From: Oscillospiraceae bacterium
Lineage (GTDB): Bacteria; Bacillota; Clostridia; Oscillospirales; Oscillospiraceae
Assembly (NCBI GenBank): GCA_015067525.1
Contig: SVMH01000017.1
Location: 1 to 38,981 of the forward strand
Length of the DNA: 38,981 nucleotides
Reading direction: 5' to 3'
Position 1 is the stretch's first letter, and each line of letters opens with the position of its first letter. The position numbers and the translations under genes are program-made. Under the pieces are notes generated by a model. It saw nothing but the letters and a program-made list of their open reading frames with translations, was not told the origin of the DNA and searched no databases. Shown here in pieces: positions 10,022 through 29,321 of this stretch.

Positions 10022-10855
10022 TCACTTGCACGCGCAGTAGTTGCGGGTGGAGACATAGTCCTTGGGCATTTCCACTGTGTTGGGCGGGAAGAATTCGCTG
10101 ACAGGGAAGGCCACCGAGCGGAAGAGACCGCAGGGATCCTGCTGGTCATCGGTGCAGCACTCTGTCTGGGGGATGCAGTAGTCGTAGACAGGAATGAGCA
10201 GCTGCGTATCACGCTCCAGACGCACCAGAGTGAACTGGCCCAGCGTCACATAATAGCGGCGCGAGCCGCAGTCGTTGAGTACCAGCGGCTGCGAGAAGCA
10301 CTGGGTAATATACCCGGGAAGCTCGGCAAGACAGCACTCGCAGCCGCAGCTGCAGTTTTCCGCCATGCGTGTATCCAGCACGATGGGATCCACCGCTTCC
10401 ACCACCGCAGTGGGGAGATTGGTGCTTACCCGGCCGGGGATATCCAGATCGTCCATCACCGTGTCCGAGGTGAAGATCTTGGCGCTGCCTTCGCTACCAA
10501 AGAGGATGCAGCGCTTGTCGAACACGCACAGACCCTCCGCCTCGGCGCAGCGGGGCGTACCGGCGGCCACCTGCAGCGTGACGCGGTAGAAAAAGCGCAT
10601 ATCGATGGAGTAGAAGCCGCGGTTAAAGGTGACCGGCTCCACATCGGTATAGACGTAGAGAAGCTCCGCCGTGCCGCCGCGGATCATCTGGCAGCCGCTG
10701 AGGATCTCCTGCGCGGCGGTGGTGGGGTAGAAGCGCAGATCTTCGATGCAGTCCTTGTCGCGGCAGCTGTCGAAGATCTTACGGGTATGGATGCAGACGG
10801 ACTCACGGACGCTGCTCAGATCGCAGACCGGGCCCGGCATTCCGTTTTCAGCCAT
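10022..10855 (-). CDS. Cysteine-rich conserved clostridial hypothetical protein
   Basis: The 277-residue protein has 21 cysteines, including a CSCGCECC cluster in the C-terminal half and SCRDKDCIEDLR near the N-terminus. I recall the second pattern from uncharacterised proteins of Clostridia, but I cannot name a domain with an assigned function. There is no signal peptide and no membrane segment. The start is preceded by a strong AGGAGGT. A sigma-K-like promoter is visible at 10899-10927, which together with the cysteine content suggests a spore-coat or other late mother-cell protein. That role is inference. A metal-binding cytoplasmic protein is the alternative. Confidence 0.75.
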   Translation of the reverse strand: MAENGMPGPVCDLSSVRESVCIHTRKIFDSCRDKDCIEDLRFYPTTAAQEILSGCQMIRGGTAELLYVYTDVEPVTFNRGFYSIDMRFFYRVTLQVAAGTPRCAEAEGLCVFDKRCILFGSEGSAKIFTSDTVMDDLDIPGRVSTNLPTAVVEAVDPIVLDTRMAENCSCGCECCLAELPGYITQCFSQPLVLNDCGSRRYYVTLGQFTLVRLERDTQLLIPVYDYCIPQTECCTDDQQDPCGLFRSVAFPVSEFFPPNTVEMPKDYVSTRNYCACK

Positions 10856-10959: not shown

Positions 10960-10974
10960 AAATCGTATGTGTTT

Positions 10975-12021
10975 TCAGGAAATGGTGACCTTGGCATTGG
11001 TGCCCACCACGCACACATAGCTCTTGCCGATGCCGAGGGAGAAGTGGGTGCCGTCGGGCAGGGTGTAGGTGAAGGGATCCTCCATGGTCTCCTTATGCCA
11101 GGTGATCTCCGTAGCCTTGCCGCCGCAGATGTAGGTGCCGGTGCCGCTGCCCTGTACGTCGATGATCATGTGGCCGGAAGAGTCACCGCTGTTGCGCACG
11201 CTGGTACGCAGGATCAGCAGGTTGGTGACGCCTACCTGCTCGTTGGTGTTGCCGTCGATATAGGGCTTCTTATACTGGCCGATCATATACAGCTTGGTTT
11301 CGGGGTCGTATTTGAAGGTGCCGGTCTTATAGCTGGAAAACCGTACGGAAATATCCGTTGCGTTGGTGTCACTGTAGGGGGTGCCGTCCTCCACATAGGT
11401 GAAGGGATAGGAAAAATCCTCGCTGTGTTCGCGCTGCCAGTTGTGCTCGGTGAGATAGGCTTCCAGTTTCTCACCGCTGGTCATCAGGGTATGTTCCCAT
11501 GCCATGGTCTTGCGGCGCTCCTTGTCGCGCCAGAAGCAGGCAAAGTCACCCTCGTCAATATCGTCCATCTTCAGCTTGCGGATCATCTGCATGGCTTCGG
11601 TGCTGCCGCCGGCATGGACGTAGATGGCTTCCATACCCAGTACCGTCTCCACAAAGTAGGGACGGGCGCTGCGGGTGGAACCGATGGTGCCGACGCCGCT
11701 GACATCCTGGAAAAAGCCCACCATGCGGGTAATGCCGCCTTCCACATTGTACTCAAAAATGATATCGGCATCGGACACGCCGTGCTGCGGCATGGCCAGA
11801 TGAATGTTGTTGAGCATGCTGGCGATGGGGCGGTAATTGACGCGGTCGGGGTTGGCCATAGGCTCACCGGTCAGGGGATTTCTGACAGTGGTATCCTCAG
11901 TCTGCTCCGGAAGCTGGATGACAACCTGATCGGGCAGCAGATCCGGATTTTCCCAGCGCTTGCAGCCGGTGCAGGACAGCACCAAAAGAGCTGCCAGAAT
12001 CAGACAAATTGTTTTCTTCAT
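10975..12021 (-). CDS. DUF3048 (YerB-like) lipoprotein
   Basis: The start at 12021 gives MKKTICLILAALLVLSCTGC, a lipoprotein signal peptide with lipobox LSCTGC and lipidated Cys20. The mature part, to 348 residues, has the DUF3048 features NPLTGEP near residue 45, ASMLNNIHLAMPQHGVSDAD, GIGSTRSARPYF-like GTIGSTRSARPYF, and a C-terminal region ending in WHKETMEDPF...YVCVVGTNAKV. The family (Bacillus YerB) has no firmly assigned function. It should sit on the outer face of the membrane. An in-frame upstream extension to 12291 has no ribosome-binding site and would destroy the signal peptide, so I reject it. Its promoter is at 12054-12082 and it is divergent from the DUF4364 gene. Confidence 0.88.
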   Translation of the reverse strand: MKKTICLILAALLVLSCTGCKRWENPDLLPDQVVIQLPEQTEDTTVRNPLTGEPMANPDRVNYRPIASMLNNIHLAMPQHGVSDADIIFEYNVEGGITRMVGFFQDVSGVGTIGSTRSARPYFVETVLGMEAIYVHAGGSTEAMQMIRKLKMDDIDEGDFACFWRDKERRKTMAWEHTLMTSGEKLEAYLTEHNWQREHSEDFSYPFTYVEDGTPYSDTNATDISVRFSSYKTGTFKYDPETKLYMIGQYKKPYIDGNTNEQVGVTNLLILRTSVRNSGDSSGHMIIDVQGSGTGTYICGGKATEITWHKETMEDPFTYTLPDGTHFSLGIGKSYVCVVGTNAKVTIS

Positions 12022-12053
12022 TTCCTCGTCTCCTTTTACAAAGATCGACACAC

Positions 12054-12082
12054 AGCATACCAGATATTTGCAGCGAATGCAA
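12054..12082 (-). promoter_or_regulatory. sigma-A-type promoter for the DUF3048 lipoprotein
   Basis: On the minus strand, TTGCAT (12077-12082) and TATGCT (12054-12059) are separated by 17 bases, about 33 bases upstream of the start codon. The TTGCAT -35 with a 17-base spacer is the same design as the rpmB promoter. Confidence 0.55.
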
Positions 12083-12112
12083 TCACGCCCACAGAAAATT
12101 TCCGTTTTGCCC

Positions 12113-12141
12113 TGTACAAAAAGGGAATTTTTCCTTATAAT
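12113..12141 (+). promoter_or_regulatory. sigma-A-type promoter for the DUF4364 gene
   Basis: TGTACA (12113-12118), a 17-base spacer and a perfect TATAAT (12136-12141) lie 25 bases upstream of ATG 12167. It is divergent from the lipoprotein promoter, with about 30 bases between the two -35 elements. Confidence 0.6.
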
Positions 12142-12166
12142 AGAGGTGAAAAGAGGTGATCGCGGA

Positions 12167-12799: not shown

Positions 12800-13723
12800 A
12801 TGGACGAGAGATACGCTGTCGAACGGTATGAGCAGGCAGCGGCGATTTTGCCTGTGCGCTGGCAGCGTGCGGCCATGCACCTGCCGGACTGGCAGAAAGC
12901 GCAGGCGGAAGAACTTCGCCTGCGGGTAGGCCAGCCGATGACGGTACTGCTGCCGGAGGGGGAGATCTTCGTGCAGCAGGAACAGCCGCGCACCGCGGTA
13001 GCGCAGGCAGATCTGGAGCAGCTGTGCGACATTGTGACCGGCTATTCCCGCTACGCAGTGGGTGATACCCTCAGCCACGGGTACTTGACGGCAACGGGCG
13101 GGTTTCGCGTAGGACTGTGCGGCAGCGCAGTAATGCACAGCGGCCACATGACCAATCTGCGGGATTTTTCCTCTGCCACCATCCGCATCAGCCGCGAACG
13201 CATCGGCCTTGCGGAGAAGGTTCTGCCGCAGCTGATGACGGAGGGAACATTTTCCGGCACGCTGATCTATTCACCGCCCGGACTGGGAAAAACGACCCTG
13301 CTGCGGGATATGATCCGCCTGCTGTCCGATGGCAGCGGGCAAATACCGGCCCGACGCGTGGCCGTGGCAGACGAGCGCGGCGAGATCGCCGTCATGCATC
13401 AGGGCAGGGCACAAATGGCGGTCGGCTGCCACACCGATGTGCTGGACGGCTGTCCTAAGGCGCTGGCGATTCCCATTTTGCTGCGCAGCGCCAATCCCCA
13501 GATCATCGCCGTGGACGAGATCACGCAGCCGGAGGACTTGCAGGCCATGGCCCACGCCGCCAACTGCGGTGCATCGCTGCTGGCCACCATCCATGCCGGC
13601 AGCAGAGAAGAACTGGAGCAAAAGCCGCTTTTTGCCAAGCTGCTGGAGATGAAGGTATTTTCCGCCGCGGTGGCCATTCGCTGTGAAAACGGTGTGCGCA
13701 GCTATGAGGTGCATGCGCTGTGA
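12800..13723 (+). CDS. spoIIIAA: Stage III sporulation protein AA (secretion-type ATPase)
   Basis: The 307-residue protein has Walker A PPGLGKTT at residues 159-166, followed by RRVAVADERGEIA, the arrangement of SpoIIIAA. This is the AAA-type ATPase thought to power the SpoIIIA-SpoIIQ channel that connects mother cell and forespore. It should act in the mother cell at the forespore membrane. GGAGGT at 12785-12790 supports ATG 12800. It is the first of eight contiguous spoIIIA genes and overlaps the next by four bases. Confidence 0.95.
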   Translation: MDERYAVERYEQAAAILPVRWQRAAMHLPDWQKAQAEELRLRVGQPMTVLLPEGEIFVQQEQPRTAVAQADLEQLCDIVTGYSRYAVGDTLSHGYLTATGGFRVGLCGSAVMHSGHMTNLRDFSSATIRISRERIGLAEKVLPQLMTEGTFSGTLIYSPPGLGKTTLLRDMIRLLSDGSGQIPARRVAVADERGEIAVMHQGRAQMAVGCHTDVLDGCPKALAIPILLRSANPQIIAVDEITQPEDLQAMAHAANCGASLLATIHAGSREELEQKPLFAKLLEMKVFSAAVAIRCENGVRSYEVHAL

Positions 13724-14205
13724 CCGGAAAAATAGCAGGGGCGTGTCTGCTGATGCTGTCCGGCACGCTGATCTGCAGAAGCTGGATCTCGGAAAAGCGC
13801 CGCGACATCCGTCTGACAGAGGCATTTGCCGCTGCGCTGGAACAGATGGAGGGCGAGATCCGCTGGAAGAACCTTCCAATGCCCAGAATTCTGCAGGGGC
13901 TGCAGAAAAACGCGCGGTGCGGCGAATTTTTTCAGTTTGTCTGCGGCGAAATGCGTCAAGGTTCGGATCTATATGATGCGTGGCAGAAGGCTTGCGGTAC
14001 CGTGCCGGTCAAGGCGGCAGAAGACCTTTTGCGCCGTGTGGAGCTGTGCGGTGATGCGCAGCAGATCATGGGTTCCTTGCATTTGGCAGCAGACGAAGCG
14101 CATCGTCTTGCCGCCGCCATGACACAAAGGCAGCGACAGAATGAACGGCTTTGCATGGCTCTTGGCGGCTGCCTCACAGCCATGCTGGTGATCGTTTTGA
14201 TTTGA
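13720..14205 (+). CDS. spoIIIAB: Stage III sporulation protein AB
   Basis: The 161-residue protein starts at a GTG that overlaps the spoIIIAA stop (GTGA). It has a short hydrophobic N-terminus, a long helical middle with ALEQMEGEIRW and LLRRVELCGD, and a C-terminal membrane helix ending LTAMLVIVLI. This is the SpoIIIAB pattern, distantly like type II secretion F proteins. It is presumed to be the membrane platform partner of the SpoIIIAA ATPase. Confidence 0.9.
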   Translation: MTGKIAGACLLMLSGTLICRSWISEKRRDIRLTEAFAAALEQMEGEIRWKNLPMPRILQGLQKNARCGEFFQFVCGEMRQGSDLYDAWQKACGTVPVKAAEDLLRRVELCGDAQQIMGSLHLAADEAHRLAAAMTQRQRQNERLCMALGGCLTAMLVIVLI

Positions 14206-14214
14206 GGATAGAAG

Positions 14215-14409
14215 ATGGATGTAGATCTGATTTTTAAAATAGCGGCCATCGGGATCTTGGTGGCGGTACTCAATCAGGTGCTGGTGCGCAGCGGCAGGGA
14301 AGAACAGGCTATGATGACCACGCTGGCGGGACTCGTGGTGGTGCTGATGATGCTGGTGCGGCAGATCAGCGACCTGTTTGATCTGATCAAGACGCTGTTT
14401 TCTTTGTGA
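14215..14409 (+). CDS. spoIIIAC: Stage III sporulation protein AC
   Basis: This 64-residue, almost wholly hydrophobic protein has two membrane helices around a conserved central turn (LVRSGREEQAMMTTLAGL). Size and position identify SpoIIIAC, a small membrane subunit of the forespore channel. Its stop shares one base with the spoIIIAD start. Confidence 0.92.
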   Translation: MDVDLIFKIAAIGILVAVLNQVLVRSGREEQAMMTTLAGLVVVLMMLVRQISDLFDLIKTLFSL

Positions 14410-14795
14410 TGGAACAGATCGTAAAGGTGGCGGCGCTTTGCCTGATCGGTGGCATATTGGGCGCAGTGCTCAAAAAAACAGGAGCTGAGCAGGCGGCGAT
14501 GATCTCGCTGGCGCTGACGATTGTTGTGGGTGCCGTGCTGCTGCAGCTCCTCGACGATATTCTTTCGTTCGTACAGCAGCTGATGGAACTGGGCGGTCTG
14601 CTTCCGCAGCTGTTCCGTCCGCTGTTCAAAACAGTAGCCATTGCGCTTGTCAGCCGCGTCGGCTGCGAGTTGTGCCGCGACGCTGATTCTGCGTCGGCCG
14701 CATCACTGATTGAGATCTGCGGCGCATTTGGCGCTGTTCTGGCGGCGCTGCCGCTGTTTGAAACGGTATGGGACATGCTGCAGGGAATGCTATGA
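14409..14795 (+). CDS. spoIIIAD: Stage III sporulation protein AD
   Basis: The 128-residue membrane protein starts MEQIVKVAALCLIGGILGAVLKK. It repeats the small-subunit motif KKTGAEQAAMISLALT seen in SpoIIIAC, then adds further hydrophobic helices. I chose ATG 14409, which shares one base with the spoIIIAC stop; a GTG at 14406 is one codon longer. It is part of the membrane portion of the SpoIIIA complex. Confidence 0.9.
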   Translation: MEQIVKVAALCLIGGILGAVLKKTGAEQAAMISLALTIVVGAVLLQLLDDILSFVQQLMELGGLLPQLFRPLFKTVAIALVSRVGCELCRDADSASAASLIEICGAFGAVLAALPLFETVWDMLQGML

Positions 14796-15877
14796 GGAGA
14801 TTACAACCGATCGCTTGGGTCTTGTGCCTGATACTGATTTGCCCGGTCAACGCTTTTGCCTTACCGGAAGAAGTGGAGGATGCCCTGTCGCCGGAAGCCC
14901 GGGAACTTTTGGAATCCACCGGTCAGAGCGAGGAGGGAGTTCCTGATTTGGCAGAGGGATTGGTCAACCTCTGGAACACGTTGTGCGGGCAAATTGGTAC
15001 TCTTTTTCGCAGGAACATTGGCGGAGCAGTAACGCTGCTGGGTATCGTGCTGCTCTGCTCGCTGGCTGAGGACTGCTGCAAAGCAGGGGACGGCAGCCGC
15101 GTCCTGCCGGTGGTGCCGGCAGCGGGTGCGGCGGCCATCACCATGACGGCTGTGGGGGACCTGCAGTCCATGATGGGCGTCGGCGTAGATGCCATAGAAC
15201 AGCTGGCTGTTTTCTCCAAGGCGCTGCTGCCTACGCTGATGGCGGCTGTGGCCGCGGGCGGCGGCGCGGTTTCTGCCGGCATGCGCCATGTAGCGGCAGT
15301 TTTTGTAACGGATGTGCTGATCACCCTGATCCGCCAACTGCTGCTGCCGCTGGTTTACGTCTATGCAGCCGCATCGGCTGCAGCCGCCTTTGTGGCGGGT
15401 AAGCGGCTGGGGAGCATTGCCAAGGCCATCCGCAAAGGGATTGGCTGGCTTTTGAGCGGAATATTGGTGCTCTACACGGGCTATCTGACGCTTGCCGGTG
15501 CGGCCGCATCCTCCGCTGACCGGCTGGCGCTGCAGGTGACCAAGACCGCCATGGGCGCGCTGCCGGTAGTTGGCAGCATCATTTCGCAGGCCGCCGACAC
15601 AGTGGTAAGCGGTGCGTCGCTGCTGAAAAGCACCGTTGGCATAGCAGGTACGCTGGCGGTTTTGGCCATGTGCCTCATGCCGGTTCTTGACTTGGCGATA
15701 CAGTATCTCTTGTATAAAGTCACGGCCTTCCTCTCCGGCACGTTGGGCTCGGAGGAACTGGTGGAGCTGATCGACAATCTGGGCGGTGCATTCGGCCTCA
15801 TTCTGGGTATGACAGGCGCCTGCGCCACGCTGCTGCTGATCTCCACGATAACTTCAATCATGGTGGTGACAGGATGA
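14792..15877 (+). CDS. spoIIIAE: Stage III sporulation protein AE
   Basis: The 361-residue protein has an N-terminal signal peptide (MRRLQPIAWVLCLILICPVNAFA) followed by several hydrophobic segments, the layout of SpoIIIAE, the largest membrane subunit of the channel. ATG 14792 overlaps the spoIIIAD stop (ATGA) and gives a clean signal sequence, so it is preferred over 14768. The mature N-terminus is acidic (LPEEVEDALSPEAREL). Confidence 0.92.
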   Translation: MRRLQPIAWVLCLILICPVNAFALPEEVEDALSPEARELLESTGQSEEGVPDLAEGLVNLWNTLCGQIGTLFRRNIGGAVTLLGIVLLCSLAEDCCKAGDGSRVLPVVPAAGAAAITMTAVGDLQSMMGVGVDAIEQLAVFSKALLPTLMAAVAAGGGAVSAGMRHVAAVFVTDVLITLIRQLLLPLVYVYAAASAAAAFVAGKRLGSIAKAIRKGIGWLLSGILVLYTGYLTLAGAAASSADRLALQVTKTAMGALPVVGSIISQAADTVVSGASLLKSTVGIAGTLAVLAMCLMPVLDLAIQYLLYKVTAFLSGTLGSEELVELIDNLGGAFGLILGMTGACATLLLISTITSIMVVTG

Positions 15878-16347
15878 TCGAAACTCTGAAAGACTGGCTG
15901 CGGGGCCTGATCGCCGCCGCGATCTGTCTTGCCGTACTGGACGCATTGATTCCCAAAGGGGCTGTCAAAGGCATCGGAAAAGTGACAGCCGGACTTGTCC
16001 TGTTTCTGGTGATGCTGCAGCCCTGGATGCAGCTGGACGCAGCGGAACTGGAACTGAAATTTGACACCTATCGCTGCCGGATCGACGAACAGATCCAGGC
16101 ATATCAGGAAGACTATCGCGGCCAGATGGAAGCACTCATAAAGGCGGAAACGGGCGCATATATATCGGAAACAGCAGCCGCTATGGGTGTGCCGTGCTGT
16201 GCGGAAGTGGAAACGGTGCCGATCGACGGTGTGCCGGTACCTGCAAGTGTCACGCTGGATACAGCCTATCATGAAGCATTGTCTGTCTGGCTGACACAGG
16301 AGATCGGCATCGCGCCGCAGCAGCAGTACTGGGAGGTGGAGCCATGA
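15874..16347 (+). CDS. spoIIIAF: Stage III sporulation protein AF
   Basis: The 157-residue protein has two N-terminal membrane helices (LIAAAICLAVLDALIPKG, then KVTAGLVLFLVMLQPW) and a soluble C-terminal domain, as in SpoIIIAF. Its start overlaps the spoIIIAE stop and its stop overlaps the spoIIIAG start, both as ATGA. In Bacillus the C-terminal domain has a ring-building fold and faces the intermembrane space. Confidence 0.9.
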   Translation: MIETLKDWLRGLIAAAICLAVLDALIPKGAVKGIGKVTAGLVLFLVMLQPWMQLDAAELELKFDTYRCRIDEQIQAYQEDYRGQMEALIKAETGAYISETAAAMGVPCCAEVETVPIDGVPVPASVTLDTAYHEALSVWLTQEIGIAPQQQYWEVEP

Positions 16348-16853
16348 TCTGGCAGATAAAGGGCGAAAAGCTGACGCTGCTTTGGCAGAAATATCGCTTT
16401 GTACTGCTGATATTGCTGGCAGGCCTGCTGCTGATGCTGCTGCCGGGCGGCACCGGAGATACCGAAAAAGACATCGACACGCTGCAGGCAGGCTTTTCGC
16501 TGGAAGATACGGAGCGGCGCATGGAAGATATTCTCTCACGCATCGAAGGCACCGGAAGACTGCAGCTGATGCTGACGCTGAAAGCGGGCTCACAGCTGCA
16601 TCTGGCGGAGGACACCGACCAGACTGTGACGCAGGACGAAATGCAGACTCAAAAAGAAACGGTAACGCTCAACCGCGGAAGCGGCCAACAGGACGTGGTC
16701 GTCACGCAGGAGGTCTATCCGCTCTATCAGGGTGCTTTGGTGGTCTGTCAGGGTGCGGATCAGGCGGCGGTACGATTGGCTGTTACGGAAGCCGTATCCG
16801 CACTGACAGGATTGAGCAGTGACAAAATCAAAGTGGTGAAATGGAATTCATAA
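16344..16853 (+). CDS. spoIIIAG: Stage III sporulation protein AG
   Basis: The 169-residue protein has one membrane helix (about residues 18-36) and a soluble domain beginning near GRLQLMLTL that resembles the ring-building motif of SpoIIIAG. In Bacillus that protein forms a large ring in the channel between mother cell and forespore. It overlaps spoIIIAF by four bases. Confidence 0.9.
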   Translation: MIWQIKGEKLTLLWQKYRFVLLILLAGLLLMLLPGGTGDTEKDIDTLQAGFSLEDTERRMEDILSRIEGTGRLQLMLTLKAGSQLHLAEDTDQTVTQDEMQTQKETVTLNRGSGQQDVVVTQEVYPLYQGALVVCQGADQAAVRLAVTEAVSALTGLSSDKIKVVKWNS

Positions 16854-19811: not shown

Positions 19812-20681
19812 ATGGATTATCAGACCCGTTACGCCGCATATCACGCGGCCATTGAAGCATATCTGGCCGGACTTTTCACCCAGGACAAACCCTACGGCAA
19901 GCTGTTTGAATCCATGCGCTACAGCATTCTGGCCGGCGGCAAGCGCATCCGCCCTGTGCTGACGCTGGAATTTGCCCGTCTGGGCGGCATCGACTGGCAT
20001 TTGGCCCTGCCTTATGCCTGCGCGCTGGAGCTGGTACATAATTATTCCCTCATCCACGATGATCTTCCCTGTATGGATGACGATGACCTGCGCCGCGGCA
20101 AACCCACCAACCACAAAGTTTTCGGCGAAACCATGGCCGTACTGGCAGGCGACGCCCTGCAGCCCGAGGCATTTCGCCTGATCGCGCAAGCGCCCGAACT
20201 GAGCGCCCAGAGCCGTATTGAGGCTGTGGAGGTGCTGGCTAAGGCCGCCGGTGCTGACGGTATGGTGGGCGGTCAGGTACTGGACACGGTATGCAACGTG
20301 CAGGACGAGGAAAACCTGACGCTGCTGCATCGGCTCAAGACCGGTGCCATGATCGCAGGCGCCGTCGAATTGGGCTGCGTGGCGGCAGAGATGGATGCCC
20401 AAAAACGGGCACAGGCGGTGGAGTACGCCGCGCAGCTGGGTCTTGCCTTCCAGATCCGCGACGATATGCTGGATGTGGTCGGCGACGAAGAAGTGTTCGG
20501 CAAGCCCATCGGTTCGGACAGGGAAGAAGGGAAAGTCACCTTCGTCGACCTGAGAGGACTGGACGGCTGTGCCCGTCTGGTGGACGAATGTACCGCCCGT
20601 GCCAAGGCAGCCATCGCCGATTGGCCGGAGCACGAATTCCTCTTTGAACTGGCTGACCAGATGGTAGGCCGCACCGTATAA
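19812..20681 (+). CDS. ispA: Geranyl/farnesyl diphosphate synthase
   Basis: This 289-residue trans-isoprenyl diphosphate synthase condenses isopentenyl diphosphate with allylic diphosphates to give C10/C15 products for the quinone and undecaprenyl pathways. It has GGKRIRP near residue 42, the first aspartate-rich motif DDLPCMD at residues 83-89, and the second motif DDMLD at residues 217-221 followed by GKPIGSDREEGK. The short-chain class is assigned from overall similarity; exact chain length is inference. GAGGAG lies upstream. A strong terminator follows, separating it from the OLE RNA and from dxs, which makes its early precursors. Confidence 0.94.
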   Translation: MDYQTRYAAYHAAIEAYLAGLFTQDKPYGKLFESMRYSILAGGKRIRPVLTLEFARLGGIDWHLALPYACALELVHNYSLIHDDLPCMDDDDLRRGKPTNHKVFGETMAVLAGDALQPEAFRLIAQAPELSAQSRIEAVEVLAKAAGADGMVGGQVLDTVCNVQDEENLTLLHRLKTGAMIAGAVELGCVAAEMDAQKRAQAVEYAAQLGLAFQIRDDMLDVVGDEEVFGKPIGSDREEGKVTFVDLRGLDGCARLVDECTARAKAAIADWPEHEFLFELADQMVGRTV

Positions 20682-20688
20682 AACCATA

Positions 20689-20721
20689 ACACCCGCTCTC
20701 GAACGGAGCGGGTGTTTCTTT
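20689..20721 (+). terminator. Intrinsic terminator after ispA
   Basis: A perfect 10-bp stem (ACACCCGCTC / GAGCGGGTGT, 20689-20698 and 20706-20715) with a seven-base loop is followed by a T-rich tail (TTTCTTT). It closes the asp23-ispA unit. Confidence 0.9.
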
Positions 20722-20766: not shown

Positions 20767-20795
20767 TTGAAAATTCAAAAGAAGTGTGCTATGAT
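20767..20795 (+). promoter_or_regulatory. sigma-A-type promoter for the OLE RNA
   Basis: TTGAAA (20767-20772) and TATGAT (20790-20795) are separated by exactly 17 bases, and each hexamer matches 5 of 6 consensus positions. The expected start point, seven or eight bases downstream, falls at about 20802-20803, the first base of the RNA's closing helix. Confidence 0.72.
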
Positions 20796-20802
20796 AGTCA
20801 TC

Positions 20803-21456
20803 ACTGAACAGCGGCGCAGTATCCTAGTCAGATCTGCCGTCTCCTAAGAAGGGCCTAAAAATCCTTTAAAGGGCACAACTGTGAAGCCACTGGTGCTTGC
20901 TTCTTACGCCCAGTTTGGGGTGGGTGCTGGTGGTAGGTGCGGACTTGTCCGTGCCTGCGGCTGTAGGGCGCTCTCCAATGGCATGGAGAATCCGACCCTG
21001 CTCCCGTGGAGACCTGCTGTTGTGGATGGGCGTACTCCCAACGTGGTAACCGACCCGTCTACGAAGCAGATTGAGAACCTGCAATGCGGTGCTACCCGGT
21101 CTTCGAGCCGTGAACGCTGTGTGCAGAGTAGCCTGCTTTGCGTGGGTATGGCGAATAGGAGAGCTGATGCACGAGAGCCCCGGCCAGGGCAGCAGTGCTA
21201 TTTCCTTGAAACCATGCCTGCAAAAGAAGCTAAGAGACGGTTTGACTGCAGTGGAAATCACCTAGGCTGTCCTATTTCACATGGGGCGCCGGGGGGATTG
21301 CAGTACGGACTAAGTGGCAGTCGGGTACCATGACCAGGCAACATCATGGCATTGCATCGAAGGGGAAACCGCCTGATCGGCGACGAGAGGTGTGCAGTGG
21401 GGAAATCCAACCAGACCTAAGCCGTAAGATTAACTCCCGGAGCTGCCCTGTTCAGT
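20803..21456 (+). ncRNA. ole: OLE (ornate, large, extremophilic) RNA
   Basis: An approximately 654-base non-coding region lies between ispA and the oapA-dxs genes, the genomic position where OLE RNA is found in other Firmicutes. Its ends pair: ACTGAACAG (20803-20811) with CTGTTCAGT (21448-21456). I can see internal hairpins at 20935-20956 (10 bp), 20972-20989 (TCTCCA/TGGAGA) and 21328-21349 (CCATGA/TCATGG). Two GAAA tetraloop hairpins lie near the 3' end (21363-21370 and 21399-21408). Length, position, the neighbouring oapA gene and the 3' GNRA hairpins fit OLE, a membrane-associated RNA that works with OapA, OapB and OapC in stress and magnesium responses. Open frames across it do not resemble proteins. 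The call rests on context and visible structure, not a covariance-model search. Confidence 0.85.
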
Positions 21457-21484
21457 TATTTTTTTATTAAAGGAATGATTTCAC

Positions 21485-22030
21485 TTGAGTGACAGGGAAA
21501 AAAGCAAGAAGAAAAACAGTCACTGGCCGCTGAAGGTCTTTTTGATCTCCGTGGCGCTGTCCGCTGTGCTGAGCTTTTTTTCATCCACCGCTCTGTCCGG
21601 TGCCGGTATCTGGATCGCAGCCTTTGTTCTTGTGGCGTTCATCGGTCTGGGTATCATTTTTGATATGGTGGGCGTGGCCGTGACGGCTGCCGACCCCCGT
21701 CCGTTCCATTCCATGGCGGCCCACAAGGAAAAGGGCGGCCGTGAGGCGGTGCGGCTTTTGAGCAAGGCCAACGAGGTCAGCTCTTTCTGCAACGACGTGG
21801 TGGGCGATATCTGCGGTATCGTCAGCGGCTCCACCGCCGCCGTCATTGTCACGCAGCTGCAGCAGGGTCTGAATACCACCTCCGTTCTGGTCTCCATTGG
21901 CGTCACTGCGCTGATTTCCGGCGCCACCATCGGCGGTAAGGCCCTTGGCAAGAAAGTGGCCATCCATGACAGCACCAGTGTCGTGTACCGCGTGGCCCGT
22001 GTGATGCACACGCTCCATCTTTTCCGCTGA
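21485..22030 (+). CDS. oapA: OLE-associated protein A (membrane protein)
   Basis: The 181-residue protein has a basic N-terminus (REKSKKKN), two hydrophobic segments at about residues 17-37 and 40-67, and further hydrophobic stretches at about 110-125 and 133-148. Between them lies a polar loop with the DxxxD motif DVVGD at residues 104-108. That topology, the motif and the position directly after the large RNA identify OapA, the membrane partner that anchors OLE RNA. The only workable start is TTG 21485, 10 bases after AAAGGA; the nearby ATG at 21475 runs into a stop after five codons. The stop overlaps an ATG that could start dxs. I see no terminator between the RNA and this gene. Confidence 0.88.
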   Translation: MSDREKSKKKNSHWPLKVFLISVALSAVLSFFSSTALSGAGIWIAAFVLVAFIGLGIIFDMVGVAVTAADPRPFHSMAAHKEKGGREAVRLLSKANEVSSFCNDVVGDICGIVSGSTAAVIVTQLQQGLNTTSVLVSIGVTALISGATIGGKALGKKVAIHDSTSVVYRVARVMHTLHLFR

Positions 22031-22044
22031 TGGGAGATGATCTT

Positions 22045-23898
22045 TTGATTCTCGAACGTATCTACGATCCGAAAGATGTAAAGGATCTCAACGACGAAGA
22101 AGCCCGCGTTCTCTGCGGCGAACTGCGCGAATTTCTGCTGGGCCAGGTCTCCCGGACCGGCGGTCATCTTGCGTCCAATTTAGGTGTTGTTGAACTGACG
22201 GTGGCCATCCACCGCGTGTTTGACACTGCCCGCGACAGACTGGTGTTTGACGTGGGTCACCAGTGCTATGTCCACAAGGCTCTGACCGGCCGGCGTGCTA
22301 TGTTTGACACGCTGCGCCAGTTTCAGGGCCTTTCCGGCTTTCCGAAGCCTTATGAGAGTGAACACGACGCTTTTATCGCAGGACATGCCTCCAACTCTGT
22401 GTCTGTGGCGCTGGGTATGGCCCGTGCCCGCACGCAGCAGAAGGAGGACTACCATGTTCTGGCTCTGACCGGCGACGGCGCGCTGACCGGCGGTCTCAGC
22501 TTTGAAGGCCTGAACGATGCCGGTGCATCCCGTGAGCCGCTGATCGTGATCCTCAACGACAACGGCATGTCTATCGATGCCAACGTAGGCGGCATGTCCA
22601 GCCATCTGTCCCATTTGCGCACCAAGCCCGGCTACAATGCGCTGAAAAAGCGTTACCGTCAGGCATTGACCCACTCCAACGTGGGTACGCGCTTCTATAA
22701 CGCCAGCCGCGATGTGAAGCAGTTTTTGAAAAAGTCGCTGCTGCCGGAGAGCACCATGTTTGAGGACATGGGCTTCCACTATATGGGTCCCGTGGACGGC
22801 CACGATGTGGAGGAACTGACCAACGTGCTGCAGTGGGCCAAGGAGCAGCGCTCTCCCGTGCTGGTTCACGTGAATACCGTCAAGGGCAAGGGCTATTCCT
22901 TTGCCGAACAGGAGCCTAATCGCTTCCACGGCGTCTCGCCCTTTGATGTGCAGACCGGTAAGCCGCTCAAGTCCGGCGGTGCCAGCTATTCCTCTGTATT
23001 CGGTGAAGCGCTGACGGAGCTTGCCGCGGAAGATGAGCGCATCTGCGCCATTTCCGCAGCTATGGTGGACGGTACCGGCCTGACACCCTTTGCCAAGGCG
23101 TTCCCCGACCGATTCTTTGACGTGGGTATTTCCGAAGGTCACGCCGTAGCAATGGCCGCAGGCATAGCCAAGCAGGGAAGCATCCCCGTGTTTGCCGTGT
23201 ATTCCAGTTTCTTGCAGCGCGGTTTTGACATGCTGCTGCATGACGTGGCCCTGAGCGGTCTGCATGTGGTGCTGGCTGTTGACCGCGCCGGCCTTGTTGG
23301 TGCCGACGGTGAGACCCACCACGGCTGTTTTGACCCCAATTATCTCGCGCAGATCCCCGGTATGACGGTGCTGTGTCCTGCAAGCTTTGCTGAGCTGCGC
23401 AGTATGCTGCGCAAGGCTGTACTGGAGATCGACGGCCCCGTGGCAATCCGCTATCCCCGCGGCGGGGAAGAAGCGTATCACGACTGCTGCGGCGGCGAAG
23501 CAATGACTACGCTGCATGAAGGCAGCGAGTGTACCATTGTTTCTTATGGCACGCTGATCAATGAAGCACTGAAAGCTGCTGACATTCTGCAGGAAAAGGG
23601 AATCAGCGCGTCTGTTGTGAAGCTCAACCGCATTGCGCCCTTGACCGGCGACGACCTAAAGCCTTTGCATGGCGGCAGTACACTGTTGGTACTGGAGGAC
23701 TGCGTGGAGGCCGGCTGTGTCGGCCAGCGTCTGGCTGCACTGCTGCTGCAGTCGGGTATTGCACCCAAACGGTTGATTTTGAAGAATTCCGGCAGTGCAT
23801 TTGTGCAGCAGGGCAGTGTACCCCAGCTGTATCATGCGCTGGGACTGGATGGTGAAGGCGTGGCCGCCACGCTGGAGGAGGTGCTCCGTGGCTTCTAA
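22045..23898 (+). CDS. dxs: 1-deoxy-D-xylulose-5-phosphate synthase
   Basis: Dxs makes DXP from pyruvate and glyceraldehyde-3-phosphate, the first step of the MEP isoprenoid pathway, using thiamine diphosphate. The N-terminal domain has DVGHQCYVHK and the cofactor motif GDGALTGG at residues 143-150 with NDN at 171-173. The second half has DRAGLVGADGETHHGCFD and AIRYPRGG. I chose TTG 22045, giving MILERIYDP, because GGGAG at 22032-22036 precedes it and the length (617) fits. ATG 22030, overlapping the oapA stop, is the alternative and gives 622 residues. The pathway link to ispA flanks the OLE RNA on both sides. Confidence 0.94.
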   Translation: MILERIYDPKDVKDLNDEEARVLCGELREFLLGQVSRTGGHLASNLGVVELTVAIHRVFDTARDRLVFDVGHQCYVHKALTGRRAMFDTLRQFQGLSGFPKPYESEHDAFIAGHASNSVSVALGMARARTQQKEDYHVLALTGDGALTGGLSFEGLNDAGASREPLIVILNDNGMSIDANVGGMSSHLSHLRTKPGYNALKKRYRQALTHSNVGTRFYNASRDVKQFLKKSLLPESTMFEDMGFHYMGPVDGHDVEELTNVLQWAKEQRSPVLVHVNTVKGKGYSFAEQEPNRFHGVSPFDVQTGKPLKSGGASYSSVFGEALTELAAEDERICAISAAMVDGTGLTPFAKAFPDRFFDVGISEGHAVAMAAGIAKQGSIPVFAVYSSFLQRGFDMLLHDVALSGLHVVLAVDRAGLVGADGETHHGCFDPNYLAQIPGMTVLCPASFAELRSMLRKAVLEIDGPVAIRYPRGGEEAYHDCCGGEAMTTLHEGSECTIVSYGTLINEALKAADILQEKGISASVVKLNRIAPLTGDDLKPLHGGSTLLVLEDCVEAGCVGQRLAALLLQSGIAPKRLILKNSGSAFVQQGSVPQLYHALGLDGEGVAATLEEVLRGF

Positions 23899-27758: not shown

Positions 27759-28048
27759 CGTTGAGAATTGGATACTGCAAGAGCTGTGAAGGGAAGAAGT
27801 AACCTGCTGACGGACTGCAAAGAGAAGCCCTGTTTGGTGGAAAGGGCAGAGGACGCAGTTGGTGAATACATCCCGGAGCTTACCTCCCGAACGCGCAAGT
27901 GAGTAGGGAAGAGTCGGGACCGCCCGTTACAGCGGTAGGGTATATACGTACCCGATGAGGCCGCAGACCGCGAGGCTGCGGCGAACAAGAGGTGGTACCG
28001 CGATATAATACATCGCCCTCTGTCATGTGACAGGGGGCGTTTTCTTTT
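27759..28048 (+). promoter_or_regulatory. Tyrosine T-box riboswitch leader
   Basis: This leader is about 290 bases long. It contains a T-box sequence AAGAGGTGGTACCGCG (27987-28002), an intrinsic terminator (28014-28048), and a specifier TAC (27867-27869) in a GAATACATC context in the 5' part. TAC is a tyrosine codon, which matches the downstream tyrS. Uncharged tRNA-Tyr should pair with the specifier and T-box, stabilise the antiterminator and allow tyrS transcription. Confidence 0.93.
28014..28048 (+). terminator. T-box attenuator terminator
   Basis: The stem CGCCCTCTGTCA / TGACAGGGGGCG is followed by TTTTCTTTT. It competes with the T-box antiterminator immediately upstream. Confidence 0.9.
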
Positions 28049-28094
28049 GCTTTCTGTCAAAAACGAAAACAAACATGGAAAGGAACGAACAACA

Positions 28095-29321
28095 ATGGGT
28101 ATCTATGAAGAACTGGTAGCACGCGGCCTGATCGCACAGGTGACCAACGAAGAGGAAATCCGCGAAATGGTCAACAACGGCAAGGCCACTTTCTACATCG
28201 GCTTTGACTGCACCGCTGACTCTCTGCACGTGGGCCATTTCATGGCTCTGTGCCTGATGAAGCGCCTGCAGATGGCCGGCAACAAGCCTATCGCCCTCAT
28301 CGGTGACGGCACCACCATGATCGGCGACCCCTCCGGCCGTACCGATATGCGCCAGATGCTGACCGAGGAGACCATCCAGTACAACGCTGAGTGTTTCAAG
28401 AAGCAGATGGAAAAGTTCATCGACTTCTCCGATGGCAAGGCTTTGATGCTGCGCAACTCTGCATGGCTGAAGCCTCTGAACTACATTGAGATGCTGCGTG
28501 AAGTGGGTGCCTGCTTCTCCGTGAATAACATGCTGCGCGCCGAGTGCTACAAGCAGCGCATGGAAAAGGGTCTGAGCTTCCTGGAGTTCAACTACATGAT
28601 CATGCAGAGCTACGACTTCTACTACATGTTCCAGCACTACGGCTGCAACATGCAGTTCGGCGGCAACGATCAGTGGTCCAACATGCTGGGCGGTACCGAG
28701 CTGATCCGCCGTAAGCTGGGCAAGGACGCCCACGCCATGACCATCACGCTGCTCCTGAACTCCGAGGGCAAGAAGATGGGTAAGACCGCTTCCGGCGCCG
28801 TGTGGCTGGATCCCAACAAGACCAGCCCCTTCGAGTTCTTCCAGTACTGGCGCAATGTGGATGACGCCGACGTTCTCAAGTGCATCCGCATGCTGACCTT
28901 CCTGCCTCTGGAGGAGATCGAGAAGATGGACAAGTGGGAAGGCGCCCAGCTCAACGAGGCTAAGGCTATTCTGGCTTACGAACTGACCGCGCTGGTTCAC
29001 GGCAAGGAAGAGGCCGAGAAGGCCAAGGCTGCGTCCCTGGCTCTGTTTGCCGGCGGCGGCAATACGGCTGACATGCCCACCACTGAACTGACCAATGATG
29101 ATCTGGGCGGCGCCCAGATCGGTATTATTCCTCTGCTGGTCAAGTGTGGCCTGTGTGCCAGTAACGGCGAGGCTCGCCGTCTCATCCAGCAGGGCGGTAT
29201 CGTGGTCAACGATCAGAAGGTCACCACCATCGATGCTTCCTTTGGCCTGGAGCAGTTCACCGGCGAGGGTCTGGTGATCCGCAAGGGTAAGAAGGTGTTC
29301 CATCGCGCTGTTCTGGTGTGA
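28095..29321 (+). CDS. tyrS: Tyrosine--tRNA ligase
   Basis: The 408-residue class I synthetase charges tRNA-Tyr. The HIGH-type motif is HVGHF (from residue 45), the tyrosine pocket includes FGGNDQWSNM, and the KMSKS-type loop is KMGKT at residues 227-231. A C-terminal S4-like RNA-binding domain (GLCASNGEARRLIQQGGIVVND) completes the usual length. ATG 28095 follows AAAGGAA. The in-frame extension to 28047 overlaps the leader and is rejected. It is controlled by the T-box upstream and ends at a strong terminator. Confidence 0.97.
   Translation: MGIYEELVARGLIAQVTNEEEIREMVNNGKATFYIGFDCTADSLHVGHFMALCLMKRLQMAGNKPIALIGDGTTMIGDPSGRTDMRQMLTEETIQYNAECFKKQMEKFIDFSDGKALMLRNSAWLKPLNYIEMLREVGACFSVNNMLRAECYKQRMEKGLSFLEFNYMIMQSYDFYYMFQHYGCNMQFGGNDQWSNMLGGTELIRRKLGKDAHAMTITLLLNSEGKKMGKTASGAVWLDPNKTSPFEFFQYWRNVDDADVLKCIRMLTFLPLEEIEKMDKWEGAQLNEAKAILAYELTALVHGKEEAEKAKAASLALFAGGGNTADMPTTELTNDDLGGAQIGIIPLLVKCGLCASNGEARRLIQQGGIVVNDQKVTTIDASFGLEQFTGEGLVIRKGKKVFHRAVLV

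Follow-up and report, generated by a model that had tools for sequence, protein, structure and literature searches.

Gene neighbourhood of the locus

The window, by which we mean the whole stretch of 38,981 nucleotides analysed here (contig SVMH01000017.1 of an Oscillospiraceae bacterium), carries an OLE RNA between ispA and oapA-dxs. Upstream of the RNA lie nusB, xseA, xseB and ispA, and downstream oapA, dxs, tlyA, a NAD kinase gene, argR and recN. The position between ispA and oapA-dxs had been recognized in the first-pass annotation, which was made from the letters and their open reading frames, and it is upheld by profile matches of the neighbours: ispA (19812..20681, + strand) encodes a farnesyl diphosphate synthase (NF045485, 314.6 bits) and dxs (22030..23898, +) matches TIGR00204 with 648.1 bits. 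Between ispA and the RNA an inverted repeat with an 11-pair stem (20688..20716, +) is followed by a short T-rich tract and is the probable terminator of the upstream operon. The stem was reported on the - strand (20716-20688); on the + strand the same stem precedes TTTCTTT, which was unscored as a terminator.

The oapA gene (21485..22030, +) begins with TTG and encodes 181 amino acids. The CNNM match of the protein reaches 25.7 bits, just below Pfam's 28.4, and its identity to 47 other OLE-adjacent proteins is 38-77%, the profile made from these 48 rows recovering orthologues as well. As a predicted small membrane protein with a CNNM-like region encoded beside OLE, it is assigned to OapA. The MpfA/CorC Mg2+ transporters have a CNNM-type membrane domain as OapA does, but are all-protein systems.

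The closest named relatives of this OapA, in a list from which the window's own record is possibly excluded, belong to MAGs of Oscillospiraceae, Ruminococcaceae and Clostridia, one of them from goat colon. Matches to SpoIIIAA to SpoIIIAG are found at 12800-16853; six of the seven are under the NCBIfam cut-offs and only SpoIIIAC is over. By its lineage the host would be a clostridium of the gut type, from a group that forms spores, in line with both earlier guesses.

The sole other Rfam match over the gathering score in the window is a T-box leader (RF00230, 27777-28023, 109.5 bits). It stands immediately before a gene for a tRNA synthetase of class I, Tyr/Trp type (28047-29321). Two long open frames gave no match at E 0.001, one of 277 amino acids at 10022-10855 (-) against Pfam, and one of 396 amino acids at 10969-12159 (+) against NCBIfam.

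A complete OLE RNA

OLE is among the largest structured bacterial RNAs of unknown biochemical function and acts at the cell membrane; its role in cold, alcohol and magnesium tolerance is known from Halalkalibacterium halodurans. Scanning the whole window against Rfam gave a match to RF01071 at 20795-21465 (+) with 410.3 bits (E 2.6e-117, gathering score 50 bits). The match covers model positions 1-616 of 616 and is not cut off, so that the naming of this region as OLE RNA in the first-pass annotation is confirmed by the covariance model. The same kind of search found one copy in the window's genome and none in 14 control genomes. Together with the ends of the terminal helix and the promoter spacing described below, the match gives a predicted mature extent of 20803..21456 (+).

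The OLE strand folds more stably than 20 out of 20 dinucleotide shuffles (z -2.8), in agreement with the many local hairpins noted before. The pair of GAAA tetraloops reported toward the 3' end is not supported: GAAA occurs at 21365 and at 21402, both times in unpaired stretches of the Rfam structure. The first-pass annotation saw no plausible protein; mechanical open reading frames inside the region are found at 20881-21333 (+, 150 amino acids), 20866-21261 (-, 131 amino acids) and 21071-21265 (+, 64 amino acids).

Two sequences that form dimer contacts in the published OLE structure, as given in the text of PMC12286853, are present. The P4 loop region CCUAAAAAUCC (20854..20864, +) is invariant in a 22-row alignment and corresponds to the A-rich P4 loop, and the GGCC palindrome of the P9 loop (21182..21185, +) has the form described there for a kissing-loop contact. 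These are predicted contacts in the window's RNA. In having both of them, as well as the J6/7 strand, the window resembles the OLE dimer of Clostridium acetobutylicum solved by cryo-EM (PMC12286853), but it has an extra hairpin in J5/6; here the window's sequence was compared with the published description. OLE of H. halodurans is matched in model length, in the conserved core, in oapA directly downstream and in the presence of a bS21 gene (77.3 bits in the window's genome).

It could be argued that the window holds a decaying copy, as many other clades score higher than its 410 bits, with a maximum of 583, and 21 of the 159 Rfam structure pairs, counted on the covariance alignment (42 marks), are non-standard. 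We regard this as hardly credible, for the RNA is full length, its helices covary, the invariant positions are kept, oapA is intact and the promoter-like site is conserved. From the match in sequence and structure to RF01071, the synteny with oapA, the covarying terminal helix, the conserved dimer-contact sequences and the conserved promoter-like site, we conclude that an entire OLE RNA gene is present here and is under selection.

Terminal helix and promoter-like site

The Rfam structure leaves both ends of OLE unpaired. In the window 20803..20815 (+) pairs with 21445..21456 (+) in a terminal helix of 12 pairs with one bulged C (duplex -19.3 kcal/mol), which is followed by a T-rich tract at 21457-21466. 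Complementary ends had been seen before, and the limits given then, 20803-21456, coincide with the two strands of this helix. That the two strands covary across relatives was found by scoring the pairs beyond the inner three, and comparing the 5' arm and 3' arm of the same locus with re-pairings between loci. With their own arms the loci score 16.79, while 200 re-pairings gave 8.99 (sd 0.44, maximum 10.33). For this test 152 loci were examined, consisting of OLE loci and OapA neighbourhoods with the window's stretch entered twice; 22 were without anchors, and 112 of 120 distinct loci were used. The eight left out comprise one with a short upstream region, five judged to have a wrong 3' anchor, and two (L045 and L053) with the inner three bases off the allowed list. 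The text of PMC12265935 uses the names P1 and P2 for helices of this domain, and the terminal helix is probably P1 of that work.

A promoter-like site lies at 20767..20795 (+) and consists of TTGAAA, 17 bases and TATGAT with TGn in front. It ends 7 bases before the terminal helix. In the window alone such a site is not significant by itself (one found, 0.6 expected in shuffles), but among the 112 distinct loci 107 have one at most 70 bases upstream of the conserved core, compared with 16.9 (sd 3.6) in dinucleotide shuffles. Across loci a TTG-box together with a -10-like hexamer was counted as a promoter-like site. The spacer is 17 bases in 97 of the 107 sites, and TGn is found in 89. Counted to the base at which the pairing of the terminal helix begins, the -10 hexamer ends 5-8 bases upstream in 81 of 107 loci, and 5-8 bases past the -10 hexamer is the usual region for the start of transcription. 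The length of the 5' arm correlates positively with the -10 distance (Spearman 0.62), where the p-value should not be taken at face value as the loci are related. Loci from other families have the site too (27 out of 30), but at 12-44 bases from the helix; three of the 30 apparently have a wrong 3' anchor.

A promoter of its own is not a new feature of OLE and was dropped as such. According to the passages of PMC9723947 on transcription, ole of H. halodurans is part of a large operon and is in addition served by a promoter of its own; processing presumably yields an RNA of ~630 nt. In the OLE literature passages covered, which come mostly from outside the subscription journals, we met no mention of the spacing between promoter and terminal helix. 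The new part is therefore the tight and conserved spacing predicted from these sequences, and not the promoter itself. A promoter placed at the terminal helix would give OLE a precise predicted 5' end.

On this basis RNA polymerase would use the extended -10 promoter and begin the transcript at A20803 or close to it, and the 5' end of the RNA would wait for its partner strand and close the terminal helix with 21445-21456. Some transcripts may stop in the T-rich tract; the rest would be read into oapA-dxs and then be trimmed. From what has been published for OLE of H. halodurans and for two OLE RNAs of Clostridium, we would expect the RNA to dimerise, to be held at the membrane by OapA, and to help in the stress response and in Mg2+ handling.

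We also considered that the terminal helix and the T-tract form a family-wide terminator. This was rejected, since no more than 15 of 60 family loci (the window is one of them) have a T-rich tract behind the helix, and a strict scan, which skips stems without five T of six, detects a hairpin with a T-tract before oapA in just 3 of 60.

The scarcity of terminators between the helix and oapA (these 3 of 60) is also what one would expect if OLE worked chiefly in cis, with oapA-dxs under the control of a long leader and not of a free RNA. The promoter-like site at the 5' end and the start of oapA 28 bases past the helix would fit such a leader. Nevertheless we consider it improbable, as both the dimer contacts and the J6/7 strand have been kept, and in one genome (G029) ~2.5 kb with a lipoprotein-like frame separates OLE from oapA. 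Moreover, a membrane particle and, for H. halodurans, a detectable RNA of about 630 nt are described in passages of PMC12265935 and PMC9723947.

A hairpin in place of the J5/6 linker

Compared with the Rfam model, the OLE RNA of the window carries 21 additional bases between P5 and P6, where they split UU|AA in two. The result is an extra hairpin in J5/6 (20933..20958, +), which is also formed in the minimum-energy fold. Neither this hairpin nor the promoter-like site had been remarked on in the first-pass annotation. The UUAA linker, which k-turn 1a uses, is absent from the window's RNA and the hairpin stands in its place. As the window matches OLE far over the cut-off without it, the UUAA linker is not a defining feature of the OLE class.

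J5/6 was surveyed in a set of 181, made up of loci and window stretches; 32 could not be parsed, and the 149 parsed ones represent 127 distinct sequences. They were divided by linker span into a short (at most 32 bases, n=55) and a long class (at least 44 bases, n=72), because classes by hairpin length mislabelled some UUAA loci. With the same test applied to both, UAA followed by two purines is kept ahead of P6 by 53 of the 55 short linkers, and just 2 of the 72 long linkers contain such a string anywhere. UUAA alone occurs in 47 of the short and 2 of the long ones, and in neither of these two within the last 16 bases before P6. The span of the long linkers ranges from 44 to more than 140 bases. 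Two loci, L064 (genome G111) and L117, have insertions of more than 100 bases, and that of L064 apparently contains more than one stem.

The stem of the hairpin covaries. Over 67 of the 69 hairpins of usual length (67 of the 72 long-linker loci) own pairs count 6.85 out of a maximum of 9, compared with 4.78 (sd 0.15, highest 5.33) in 1000 re-pairings; an earlier count with a greedy frame gave 4.43 and 3.00, the highest of 500 re-pairings being 3.46. The best stem is also better than in dinucleotide shuffles (7.36 versus 5.40 over 69 hairpins). On its 3' side the hairpin fits the pattern YU-G[CU]-R in 70 of 72 long loci, a pattern that was written after viewing the sequences.

The lineage with the hairpin is mostly labelled Oscillospiraceae. 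Long linkers make up 42 of the 63 classified loci in the family draw and 40 of the 64 classified named loci (80 fetched). In other families all 21 distinct classified loci (22 parsed of 30) have the short linker. A tree of 98 rows, for which the remainder of the RNA was used, requires three changes of the hairpin trait, at least two of them on well supported branches.

In the published work we found no such hairpin: neither "hairpin" nor "insertion" occurs in the main text of PMC11332333 and "insertion" does not occur in the text of PMC12286853 (figures apart in both), and the passages of PMC9723947 on hairpins or insertions describe none in J5/6. Departures from the consensus that are specific for a lineage are known from OLE variants 1 and 2 of the TANB77 and RF39 clades, which are gut bacteria too (main text of PMC11332333). 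Those variants shorten or lose P7-P9, whereas the window matches the whole Rfam model and gains the J5/6 hairpin.

Kink turns and OapC

Which kink OapC binds is an unsettled question, and the J5/6 hairpin bears on it. In PMC9723947 the kink bound by OapC is made of J4a/5, J5/6 and the left side of P6, whereas in PMC12286853 it is formed by J4a/5 and J6/7. PMC12054373 names these two k-turn 1a and k-turn 1b, and treats them as mutually exclusive while holding both to be relevant. The 5' strand common to both models, J4a/5 (20874..20886, +), reads CACAACUGUGAAG in the alignment of the window and not the commoner form that ends in UCGAUGAAG. The partner strand of k-turn 1b, J6/7 (21006..21013, +), was located by alignment and motif parsing and reads GUGGAGAC. 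This strand is kept in both linker classes, being GNGGAGAY in 48 of 55 short-linker and 67 of 72 long-linker loci.

A kink turn requires sheared G-A pairs. With the AA before P6 gone in the hairpin class, these pairs would be without their usual partner in J5/6, and since the hairpin leaves no UUAA strand for k-turn 1a, OapC, where present, would most likely be offered only k-turn 1b. The RNA of the window's lineage would thus present to OapC, where there is one, the kink of J4a/5 with J6/7 alone. Taken together, a selected OLE gene whose transcription starts at the terminal helix and which offers OapC only k-turn 1b is the model we favour, with a probability of about three in four.

More far-reaching is the proposal that a large, mostly Oscillospiraceae-labelled lineage has lost k-turn 1a to the hairpin and uses 1b alone, while some of its members come to dispense with OapC. 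We put this forward tentatively, at somewhat less than even odds. If true, OLE would function without the need for switching between kinks. A lineage that has the 1b strand but not the usual 1a strand represents a natural experiment in many related species, and judging from the aligned sequences the hairpin lineage could serve as a natural test of k-turn 1a against 1b, one resting on two or three evolutionary changes.

The OapC part of this proposal was approached by counting L7Ae-family genes, where a second gene was taken as OapC beside YlxQ. A second gene is present in 18 of 21 short-linker genomes and in 12 of 42 hairpin genomes, where counts stand for identity and kinship is uncorrected. 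When only genomes of at least 90 completeness are used, the numbers are 13 of 15 and 11 of 26, kinship again being uncorrected. In total 63 of 71 OLE genomes were classified, and G227 and G245 were taken as zero since they were not among the positives. The four congeners of the window's organism, all of the hairpin class, have two L7Ae-family genes each, and in the near-complete congener G125 an OapC-type gene precedes rpsL-rpsG-fusA. The retention of OapC in the window's genus speaks against a simple loss.

In the window's own assembly, which is 85% complete, no OapC-type gene was found; its one L7Ae-family gene, under the Pfam cut-off, is in the place of YlxQ after nusA-ylxR. For OapB we looked for KOW proteins, with a KOW model uncalibrated for OapB, and found no extra one over the cut-off in the window's genome or in G125. 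The window's genome has one match (an open frame of 194 amino acids, NusG-sized) and G125 has two (L24 by its neighbours, and one of NusG size). OLE of H. halodurans has OapA, OapB, OapC and bS21 as partners; the window's RNA differs from it in the J5/6 hairpin, and OapB and OapC were not found in the 85%-complete assembly.

The same data can be read in a more ordinary way, with the hairpin as a neutral spacer and k-turn 1a formed from other nucleotides, e.g. purines flanking the hairpin. We give this reading a good deal of weight but rather doubt it. The wide variation in the length of the linker resembles a tolerated insertion. Also, the J4a/5 motif CGAUGAA, found in 49 of 54 short-linker loci, is kept in 15 of 69 hairpin loci, and two L7Ae-family genes are still found in those 12 of 42 genomes with the hairpin, which include all four congeners. 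A neutral spacer does not, however, account well for the near absence from long linkers of the UAA string that almost all short linkers hold before P6, for the weaker constraint on J4a/5 alongside the hairpin, or for the lower frequency of a second L7Ae gene with it, uncorrected for kinship as that comparison is. The change in J4a/5 fits a relaxed constraint in the aligned loci, but it follows kinship and is not independent of it; a comparison of hairpin and J4a/5 motif over independent pairs has just two to three pairs and no power. We therefore prefer k-turn 1b as the kink offered by the window's RNA.

Distribution of OLE, OapA and CorC_HlyC

Among the 250 genomes drawn from the family 71 have OLE, and among the 398 drawn from the phylum 284 have it; PMC11332333 reports in its main text 2,822 Bacillota genomes with OLE, including uncultured gut clades. 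Given these numbers OLE in a mesophilic gut clostridium is ordinary, and its occurrence outside extreme habitats is already known and not new.

OapA is present in 72 of the 250 genomes of the family draw, namely in all 71 OLE genomes and in G185, when the tables are compared by eye. OLE and OapA are on one contig in 70 of the 71 genomes; the exception is G203, where the OLE match is at the end of a contig. In G185, a genome that is 70% complete, OapA is encoded at G185:C133:8385-8936 with no detected OLE.

The CorC_HlyC domain served as the marker for MpfA. Of the 71 genomes with OLE 15 contain it, compared with 166 of the 179 that have no OLE (Fisher 3.6e-29, kinship uncorrected), and 13 genomes of the family draw have neither CorC_HlyC nor OLE. 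In a test stratified by genus, with 12 mixed genera, the exclusion is still seen (z -3.54, p 4.1e-4). It was repeated without genus g32, because the OLE-less member of this genus, G185, has OapA and may be a case of missed OLE, and gave z -3.48 (p 5.0e-4). Even within a single genus, OLE-OapA and CorC_HlyC thus tend to be mutually exclusive, which repeats and sharpens the published anticorrelation of OLE and MpfA. No CorC_HlyC domain was found in the window's genome, and one was found in G125.

In G184, G234 and G203 the OLE matches are short or split; they were set aside as candidates for new variants, as all three are located at contig ends. The one in G203 (G203:C173:4418-4731) spans model positions 1-616 with only 314 bases and has oapA on another contig; either a deletion or a fault in the assembly may account for it. 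Two genomes that belong to the same genus have ~2.3-2.5 kb between OLE and oapA (G029:C28, L043 1810 onward, and G234:C11), and in the former the insertion of ~2.5 kb includes a frame that starts like a lipoprotein.
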